This document shows, piece by piece, positions 10,141 through 11,291 of a DNA stretch of 64,000 bases. Numbering within the stretch: the stretch's first letter is position 1; each line of letters starts with the position of its first letter. A model generated the notes under the pieces. That model had not been told where the DNA came from, did not search any database, and was given only the letters and a program-made list of their open reading frames with translations. The position numbers were made by a program, and so were the translations under genes. The DNA is from Pseudoxanthomonas sp. X-1 (GTDB lineage: Bacteria; Pseudomonadota; Gammaproteobacteria; Xanthomonadales; Xanthomonadaceae): the NCBI RefSeq assembly GCF_020042665.1, contig NZ_CP083376.1, forward strand, positions 3,632,001 through 3,696,000, given 5' to 3'.

Positions 10141-10286
10141 TGGGGTTGAAGCAAGGGCTTTAGCAGTCATCCGTTCGGATGATCGGGTTCTGTTTCCTTG
10201 CCTTATTCGTTCTGATCAGGGGCCGCACCGGGCTGACCCGGTGGGTTGGGACTTCAGCTTGTTCTGAAGGCTCCCCGCGAAGAGCG

Positions 10287-10464
10287 ACCCCTCCCCCTCA
10301 GCCGCTAGCCGCGACTTCAAGCTCCCCTTGTCCTACGGCCAAAGGGAGAGGGCAAAAGCGAGCCAAGCGCTTCTCCGCGACGGCAAGATCAAGCGATCTA
10401 TCGCCGCCCGCATGACCGGCTCCCTCCCTTTCGCGAAGCGAAGGGGAGGGCTGGGGAGGGGTTA
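10287..10464. repeat. Palindromic intergenic repeat, CCCCTCCCC family
   Basis: The element is bounded by ACCCCTCCCC (10287-10296) and GGGGAGGGGT (10454-10463) in inverted orientation, with inner hairpins such as CCCTCCCTTTCGC facing GCGAAGGGGAGGG. Its left ~90 bases are clearly related to 25389-25475 (shared pieces GCGAAGAGCG, CGCTAG.CGCGA, CCTACGGCCAA). It lies between fliP and the satellite array. A non-autonomous MITE or REP-like element is the likely nature; no transposase is present. Confidence 0.7.
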
Positions 10465-10465
10465 C

Positions 10466-10666
10466 GCTGTTGCTGTTGCTGTTGCTGTTGCTGTTGCTGT
10501 TGCTGTTGCCGTTGCCGTTGCCGTTGCTGTTGCCGTTGCTGTTGCCGTTGCTGTCGCCGTTGCTGTTGCCGTTGCTGTTGCCGTTGCTGCTGCCGTTGCT
10601 GCTGCCGTTGCTGCTGCCGTTGCTGTCGCCGTTGCTGTCGCCGTTGCTGTTGCCGTTGCTGTTGCC
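10466..10666. repeat. 201-bp hexanucleotide satellite (GTTGCT/GTTGCC)
   Basis: The array begins with six uninterrupted GTTGCT units (10469-10504). It then shifts to GTTGCC and a higher-order 12-bp pattern GTTGCTGTTGCC with variants GTTGCTGTCGCC and GTTGCTGCTGCC. The total is 201 bases, a multiple of three, so it adds no stop in several frames and creates spurious Leu-rich or Asn/Gly/Ser-rich open frames. It ends 7 bases before the 3' end of the antisense DUF559 gene. Confidence 0.95.
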
Positions 10667-10673
10667 ACCCACA

Positions 10674-10994
10674 TCAGCCCCCCAACCCCAGCGCCCGCAG
10701 GATGTCCTCCAGCACCGCGTCGGTCCGCTGCAGCACGTCGTCGTTCCAGTAGCGCACTACGCGATAGCCCGCCGCATTGAGCGCCCGCGTCCTCGCCGCA
10801 TCGGCCTTCAGCTGTTGGGCGTGCTGCCCGCCGTCGAGTTCGATAACCAGCCCCATCGCCGGCGCCGCGAAATCGGCGATGTAGCCGGCGATCGGCATCT
10901 GGCGCCTGAACTTCACTCCGGCCAGTCGCCCACCGCGCACGCGTTGCCAGAGGCGGTGTTCGGCCTCGGTCGGCGTGTGGCGCGGGGCATCCAT
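10674..10994 (-). CDS. DUF559 domain endonuclease-like protein
   Basis: The 106-residue product belongs to the DUF559 family, small single-domain proteins with the Vsr/PD-(D/E)xK nuclease fold. Visible family features are the N-terminal TEAEHRLWQRVRGGRLAGVK, then KFRRQMPIAGYIADF, the acidic strand VIELDGGQHA and the C-terminal GYRVVRYWNDDVL. The start is set at the ATG at 10994, just before DAPRHTPTEAEH; the frame is open further up but not conserved-looking. It lies antisense between fliP and fliQ, flanked by a satellite and palindromic repeats. No cellular function is established; nuclease activity is inferred from the fold. Confidence 0.85.
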   Translation of the reverse strand: MDAPRHTPTEAEHRLWQRVRGGRLAGVKFRRQMPIAGYIADFAAPAMGLVIELDGGQHAQQLKADAARTRALNAAGYRVVRYWNDDVLQRTDAVLEDILRALGLGG

Positions 10995-11062
10995 GCCTGA
11001 GCTCCTTCGTTGGTCATTACAGATTAATGCGACGTAGGAACAGCAAAAAAGCGGAAATGCGG

Positions 11063-11206
11063 AAAAGCTCACCCCTCCCCAGCCCTCCCCTTCGCTCGCG
11101 AAAGGGAGGGGGCCAGTTCATGCGCGATGTAAGGATGGCTGGGCTGCGCTCTTGCCCCTCTCTTTGGCCGCAGGCCAAGGGGAGGGCCGGGGAGGGGTTA
11201 GCTTTT
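11063..11206. repeat. MITE-like 144-bp element with 28-bp inverted ends
   Basis: The left end AAAAGCTCACCCCTCCCC... (11063-11090) and the right end ...GGGGAGGGGTTAGCTTTT (11179-11206) are inverted copies matching at 26 of 28 positions. Inner hairpins are present on both sides (CCCTCCCCTTCGC with GCGAAAGGGAGGG, and TTGGCC with GGCCAA). It contains no gene. It belongs to the same CCCCTCCCC family as the copy at 10287-10464, so the DUF559 gene is bracketed by two family members. Confidence 0.75.
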
Positions 11207-11218
11207 GCTCCTGCTTTC

Positions 11219-11236
11219 CAGGCACGCGCCTTGCAG
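11219..11236 (+). promoter_or_regulatory. Sigma-54 promoter for fliQR-flhBA
   Basis: GGCACGCGCCTTGCA at 11221-11235 matches GGCAC-N5-TTGCA with correct GG-to-GC spacing. It lies 56 bases upstream of the fliQ ATG and 13 bases past the end of the MITE-like element. It would let fliQ, fliR, flhB and flhA be transcribed independently of fliL-P. Confidence 0.78.
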
Positions 11237-11291
11237 TCTTGTCGGCATTCGCCGGAAACCCGGCGCCGCACGCGCTTCGCCCGACACGGCC

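Follow-up and report, generated by a model that had tools for sequence, protein, structure and literature searches.

The closest described counterparts of the locus reported here are the REP/RAYT systems. As far as the consulted part of the source goes, GTAG palindromes are associated with RAYTs, whereas those of the CGTC type are without a dedicated transposase (PMC3733652), so that the driver of other palindromes is left open in that part. For a protein of the DUF559 family, Caulobacter VsrA, the consulted sections of another article attribute to it the SOS induction of a methylase mutant and treat it as mismatch repair (PMC12907096); the term "palindrom-" is absent from the text of this article. 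A link between DUF559 and palindromes, or an enzyme partner for the palindromes described below, is not reported in the open-access literature searched.

In the window analysed here, i.e. the whole stretch of 64 kb from Pseudoxanthomonas sp. X-1, 1151 bp separate fliP (ending at 10140) from fliQ (starting at 11292), in agreement with the 1.15 kb given in a preliminary description of this DNA. The profile matches around the insert are PF00813, PF01313 and PF01311. The insert is one genetic unit, which consists of a palindromic doublet, a DUF559 nuclease gene and an inverted palindromic doublet, and its parts and neighbours are arranged as follows:

9301..10140, plus strand: fliP, host gene upstream of the unit (PF00813, E = 2.4e-73)
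10287..10463, no strand: left palindromic doublet on the 3' side of DUF559 (sequence, repeat analysis, fold z = -3.2; intact counterpart in the congener G004)
Parts of the left doublet: inner hairpin 10422-10450; tail GGGGAGGGG 10453-10461; outer half altered by a 25-bp insert
10466..10666, no strand: hexamer/dodecamer satellite GCTGTTGCCGTT, adjoining the tail of the left doublet (TRF score 332)
10674..10994, minus strand: DUF559 nuclease gene (PF04480, E = 3e-35; likely ATG at 10994, stop at 10674)
11071..11198, no strand: right palindromic doublet on the 5' side of DUF559 (sequence, repeats, fold z = -5.8)
Parts of the right doublet: tail 11071-11080; hairpin 11083-11110; spacer; hairpin 11156-11186; tail 11189-11197
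11063-11206: right doublet including its imperfect ends, 144 bp
11219..11235, plus strand: RpoN (-24/-12)-like site before fliQ with one mismatch (consensus match; core conserved in four unit-bearing genomes)
11292..11561, plus strand: fliQ, host gene downstream of the unit (PF01313, E = 4.1e-21)
28611..28653, no strand: dispersed hairpin+tail copy, away from any DUF559 gene (sequence match)

Both brackets of the unit are doublets, each made of two inverted copies of one hairpin+tail element. The hairpin consists of CCCTCCC(C/T), a loop and GGGGAGGG and is followed by the tail GGGGAGGGG, which resembles the right arm; hereby, the order runs from the C-rich arm over the loop to the G-rich arm, with the G-rich-arm-like tail on the gene side. 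The two palindromes previously described around the nuclease gene do exist and are related, but each is a doublet instead of a single palindrome, and since the left one (10287-10463) is a degraded doublet, the two brackets are alike in kind. As single-stranded DNA the right element (11063-11206) folds with -47.6 kcal/mol (z = -5.8). The 144-bp element is found as proposed, with arms that measure 38 nt and are 87% complementary in place of the proposed 28-bp inverted ends. The 201-bp hexamer satellite is likewise present (10466-10666, TRF period 12, 16.8 copies, 95% matches). It had been listed as a separate part and instead looks like an expansion of GCAAMA-type hexamers; similar hexamers (GCAAMA/GCAACA) precede several dispersed copies of the element. 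The sigma-54 promoter proposed in front of fliQ is weaker than claimed, as the RpoN-like site has one mismatch to YTGGCACN5TTGCW, a pattern matched this well six times in the 64-kb window with 0.87 matches expected; nevertheless, the site is present, and its GGCAC-N5-TTGCA core, read from the junction sequences, precedes fliQ in all four unit-carrying genomes. As a candidate promoter it may restore the expression of fliQ, as had been proposed.

The element also occurs dispersed. Its core CCCCTCCCCNGCCCTCCC is found 26 times with at most one mismatch in the 4.5-Mb window genome (read-backwards control: 1), and 12 of its copies there are exact, 3 of these inside the fliP-fliQ gap. With at most two mismatches, the 64-kb window holds four copies, three of them in the gap, where 0.08 are expected by chance. 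Doublets without a DUF559 gene exist as well. The gene-less hairpin+tail copy at 28611-28653 stands close to another C-rich stretch. The 25-bp insert lies in the outer half of the left doublet in the window genome, and a corresponding insert was recognised by reading in the right doublet of G004; this placement in opposite doublets points to exchange between inverted ends. Elsewhere in the window, at 15639-15814 and 54408-54503, we observed inverted heptamer arrays (CGGGATT facing CCCCAAT or ATCCCGA) that extend over about 85 bp and 42 bp, respectively. In five congeners (L034, L038, L041, L047, L048) the fliP-fliQ gap is filled by comparable clusters whose units vary, so that this junction takes up two unrelated repeat types.

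The antisense DUF559 gene is borne out by a match to PF04480 of 120.8 bits against a curated cut-off of 20.6 (E = 3e-35) on a 132-aa open frame. By reading, this frame reaches 11072, and the likely start, ATG 10994 behind an AGGAG site, yields 106 aa. Compared to the 113-aa form of the G004 ortholog, whose closest named homologue is from Pseudoxanthomonas winnipegensis (95%), the protein is seven residues shorter, the loss being near the N-terminus. DUF559 has the Vsr/EDxHD fold (I-Bth0305I-like) and is a predicted small nuclease. The window protein matches the profile of 3hrl with E = 2.9e-43, and 33 aligned DUF559 proteins show no variation at the E, D, ExDG and Q positions and almost none at the H position. 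No PADLOC family for anti-phage defence was matched at 0.001. The C-terminus of many DUF559 proteins resembles, by reading, a translated repeat (TPTPLPxGEG, PSPPTPLPQGERG, PHPNPSPGGRG), and in our own reading these odd Pro-rich tails would arise because the reading frame runs into the repeat.

A second strong DUF559 match of the window genome (G000:C1:673975-674278; L002, L320) lies between hppD and hmgA, whose domains were confirmed for L002. This copy is frameshifted near a run of G, but its inverted palindromes, which are of another type (CCCCTCTCCC / TTGGGGTGAGGG), are still near-perfect. The expectation that other DUF559 genes are flanked by the same CCCCTCCCC palindromes therefore holds in part: the second copy is bracketed, but by a different palindrome, so that identical flanks are no general feature. 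The genome has one further match, which is weak (L003, E = 7.5e-4) and lies inside a long frame. Since the window protein has lost seven residues on its N-terminal side, its left doublet is altered and the second DUF559 copy is frameshifted, the unit in the window genome may be ageing.

A search for FliP in 41 genomes gave matches in 23, of which 20 belong to the genus of the window. Four of these 20 loci (G000, G004, G009, G010; FliP 93-100% identical to that of the window) carry DUF559 in the fliP-fliQ gap. In ten, fewer than 20 bp lie between the FliP match and fliQ, five show clusters of short inverted micro-repeats of 126-838 bp with no DUF559 match, and one is truncated where its contig stops. 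The block is likewise present or absent at other sites. In G174 a unit with both palindromes is placed between trpB and trpA, whereas trpB leads directly into trpA in four of five congeners, the fifth having another gene order (TrpA identified by domain match, TrpB by reading). Upstream of purA, where 30 of 36 strong purA matches in 38 same-genus genomes were examined, 9 of the 30 loci have a DUF559 match. In the 14 closest species among these loci, to which the classing applies, the unit is present in eight (two in opposite orientation), absent in five and a relic, by reading, in one. The reversed units are those of G017 (L296) and G023 (L297). Here, doublets of some species carry extra internal hairpin-like copies (L284, L290, L291, L292). 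By reading, a DUF2065-like gene neighbours purA, and ureB/ureC stand beside L163.

Terminal inverted repeats together with empty sites, as in an insertion sequence or MITE, were hence found at fliP-fliQ, trpB-trpA and purA. The earlier interpretation is partly supported; its composite-unit reading withstands both of the checks proposed for it, through these empty fliP-fliQ sites and the bracketed second DUF559 gene. A target duplication was not resolved, as filled and empty sites diverge too much exactly at the junction (trpB-trpA, purA), and no transposition event was seen among the compared loci. Units also occur at one and the same locus across species, as in a cluster of 17 framed loci of the hppD-hmgA type linked by flank similarity and in a second cluster of 11, mostly from sphingomonads, which was read as yqeY-dnaG by likeness to an annotated record; this recurrence indicates much vertical descent.

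Inverted palindromes frame DUF559 genes far beyond this genus. Framing was scored as the best local inverted match (SW) between 400 bp on each side of the DUF559 domain, the control being pseudo-genes of the same length that were placed elsewhere in these loci. In a first sample of 60 loci, the best by E-value (few left out) of 95 matches in 40 of 150 Pseudomonadota genomes, a score of at least 40 was reached by 36 of 60 DUF559 loci and 4 of 1684 control positions, and a score of at least 50 by 33 of 60 and 0 of 1684, respectively. A sample from the genus and order of the window (51 of 53 matches) gave 40 of 51 loci at SW ≥ 40, while all 86 controls stayed at 34 or below. In a sample of named records (the best 80 of 582 loci, 74 with enough flank, two also in the genus set) the threshold of 40 was reached by 51 of 74 loci versus 2 of 1992 control positions; among the loci that reached it are some whose records bear the titles Dehalococcoidia, Rokubacteria, Syntrophales, Desulfobacterales and Rickettsiales. 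With control positions set more densely, in 60-bp steps, 21/8631 were obtained in the first and 12/9924 in the named sample; in 41/57 and 50/66 loci, respectively, no other position scored as well as the DUF559 gap. No repeat at SW ≥ 40 was found in 24/60, 11/51 and 23/74 DUF559 loci of the three samples, and the E. coli copy scores 19. Among 126 framing repeats, a hairpin is present in 119, a G-rich tail on the gene side in 70 and a C-rich outer side in 15. In Neisseria gonorrhoeae (L314), degenerate inverted CCCTCTCCC / CCCTCCCC CCCTC palindromes with a similar tail edge DUF559 with SW 32, below the threshold of 40. A query with DUF559 and the doublet of Sinorhizobium meliloti Ak57 (L200) gave 438 matches in 139 plasmid records, and in 25 of 30 plasmid records among the matches listed only the small, repeat-bearing part is covered. 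At this locus (2526-3689) an ISRm16 transposase gene is annotated directly behind DUF559 and the palindromes on its right, and the latter look interrupted.

Judged by sequence comparison, the palindrome type tends to follow the DUF559 lineage, also inside one genome. G020 and G017 have four DUF559 genes each, whose palindromes fall into three clearly distinct types (CCTTCTCCCCGC, CCTTCCCCCGC and CCCCTCTCCC); the CCCCTCTCCC type occurs twice with different loops. For 126 framed loci we compared pairs that a flank filter had not flagged as orthologous. A palindrome similarity of at least 0.7 was seen in 67% of pairs with a protein identity of at least 0.75 (n = 12) and in 38% at 0.65-0.75 (n = 21), some of these 33 close pairs possibly being orthologs missed by the filter, and in 1-3% at 0.35-0.65. 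Pairs within one genome (n = 52) have a median palindrome similarity of 0.32, as low as distant pairs. The overall Mantel rank correlation is weak (rho 0.146; reached by 3 of 1000 permutations).

DUF559 and palindromes also co-occur at the level of genomes. The pattern CCCTCYCCN{2,16}GGRGAGGG, which covers some palindrome types only (the window genome itself has 6), was counted in 150 Pseudomonadota genomes, those with at least 10 copies being termed palindrome-rich. This applies to 34 genomes, with a maximum of 349 copies, whereas the pattern read backwards gave 0-11 per genome. Palindrome-rich were 29 of 40 genomes with DUF559 versus 5 of 110 without (Fisher 5e-17), with median counts of 29.5 and 0, respectively. 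Collapsing to genera (19/29 versus 2/65; 9e-11) and to families (12/21 versus 1/29; 2.5e-5) lowers the phylogenetic dependence of these statistics without eliminating it. Fewer than 10 palindromes were counted in 11 of the 40 DUF559-containing genomes. Conversely, a DUF559 match better than E = 0.001 is absent from the palindrome-rich genomes G173, G094, G058, G089 and G117, with the read-backwards control raised in G094 (11), G089 (9) and G117 (6). Palindrome counts are 42 in G173, 72 in G094 and 35 in G089 (controls 0, 11 and 9), and in these three either the DUF559 gene was lost or another enzyme serves the palindromes. A link of the palindromes to Y1_Tnp is absent in the 150 genomes (11/67 rich with, 23/83 without), and the window genome has no match to Y1_Tnp (PF01797) at 1e-10.

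As such a nuclease is bracketed likewise in many other bacteria, DUF559 may spread or keep up the palindromes. We consider it probable that DUF559 is the dedicated partner of its own palindromes, which spreads or maintains them in a system that resembles REP/RAYT but employs an unrelated enzyme. In such a system the protein would recognise the hairpin+tail, the gene-facing tail making this the likely recognition site, and would nick or cut it when single-stranded or extruded; the nicked element could then be used for copying, whereby the unit, and likewise its gene-less copies, which are far more numerous, would reach new places. At even chances we place the wider proposal that DUF559 represents a new class of stand-alone mobilising nuclease with Vsr fold that operates without any DDE or HUH transposase, has generated the GC-rich CCCTCTCCC...GGGAGAGGG repeats and their kin in many Pseudomonadota and several other phyla, and drives in each lineage its own repeat.

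The nuclease could instead, like a homing enzyme, use as landing sites palindromes that spread by other means or arise otherwise, cutting them so that its gene is copied in by recombination between inverted copies. The closeness of the fold to the homing endonuclease I-Bth0305I and the existence of gene-less doublets fit this explanation, and the opposite gene orientations at purA as well as the 25-bp insert in opposite doublets of G000 and G004 are signs of the exchange between inverted ends that it invokes. We nevertheless regard it as rather unlikely, because the empty sites at fliP-fliQ, trpB-trpA and purA have no such palindrome to land in, the palindrome type tends to follow the DUF559 lineage even within one genome, and the palindrome poverty of genomes without DUF559 (5/110 rich) would go unexplained. 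A role in mobilising the palindromes rather than in exploiting them is what we infer for DUF559.

Less probable still is a domesticated cassette, in which DUF559 would be a repair enzyme of the Vsr type, with the palindromes retained as its terminators, insulators or control sites instead of being mobile DNA. That units persist for long at conserved loci, their repeats staying closely similar, would suit such a function, as would hairpins that could putatively stop transcription on both sides and the proposal, in the consulted part of the VsrA study, of a mismatch-repair enzyme. It would leave unexplained the tens to hundreds of palindromes elsewhere that follow DUF559 presence, the doublets, and the presence and absence of the unit in close species. 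That GC-rich intergenic palindromes adjoin DUF559 merely by chance or composition is hardly credible, even though the window holds several repeat types: the same-locus controls and the read-backwards control (0-11 versus up to 349) refute it unless sampling was badly skewed, and a GC-rich palindrome pair frames DUF559 even in the visibly AT-rich locus L149. Were DUF559 indeed dedicated to its palindromes, a widespread protein without known function would gain a testable job, and orphan repeats a candidate engine.

Among known systems, NGO0050 (3hrl) and Caulobacter VsrA belong to the same DUF559 family. I-Bth0305I (3r3p), an EDxHD/Vsr-like homing endonuclease, has its chain named a mobile intron protein, whereas DUF559 is framed by palindromes and no intron was noticed beside it. 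The CGTC-tagged palindromes are, in the consulted part of PMC3733652, likewise abundant in bacteria and reported without a dedicated enzyme; the DUF559 palindromes differ from them by C/G-rich arms, by a linked nuclease and in that no CGTC tag was noticed. The rhizobial mosaic repeats (RIME), a name taken from a reference list, may be comparable to the Sinorhizobium doublet repeats, which match many plasmid records. The window unit resembles REP/RAYT systems (REPtrons, REPINs; GTAG palindromes, Y1 HUH transposases), as known from the consulted part of PMC3733652 and general knowledge, both in its arrangement and in how it relates to copies without a gene: an enzyme gene is framed by inverted dispersed palindromes, doublets occur, and the repeat type goes with the enzyme lineage. 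It differs in that the framed enzyme belongs to PF04480 (Vsr fold) instead of PF01797 (Y1 HUH transposase), that no GTAG stands at the stem foot in the DUF559-framing elements read (60 of 119 shown, plus dispersed copies), that the tail resembles the G-rich arm, and that Y1 genes have no link to these palindromes. DUF559 would accordingly be for GGGAGAGGG-type repeats what the RAYT is for REP sequences and, if this is true, REP-like systems have originated on at least two occasions, with enzymes that are not related.
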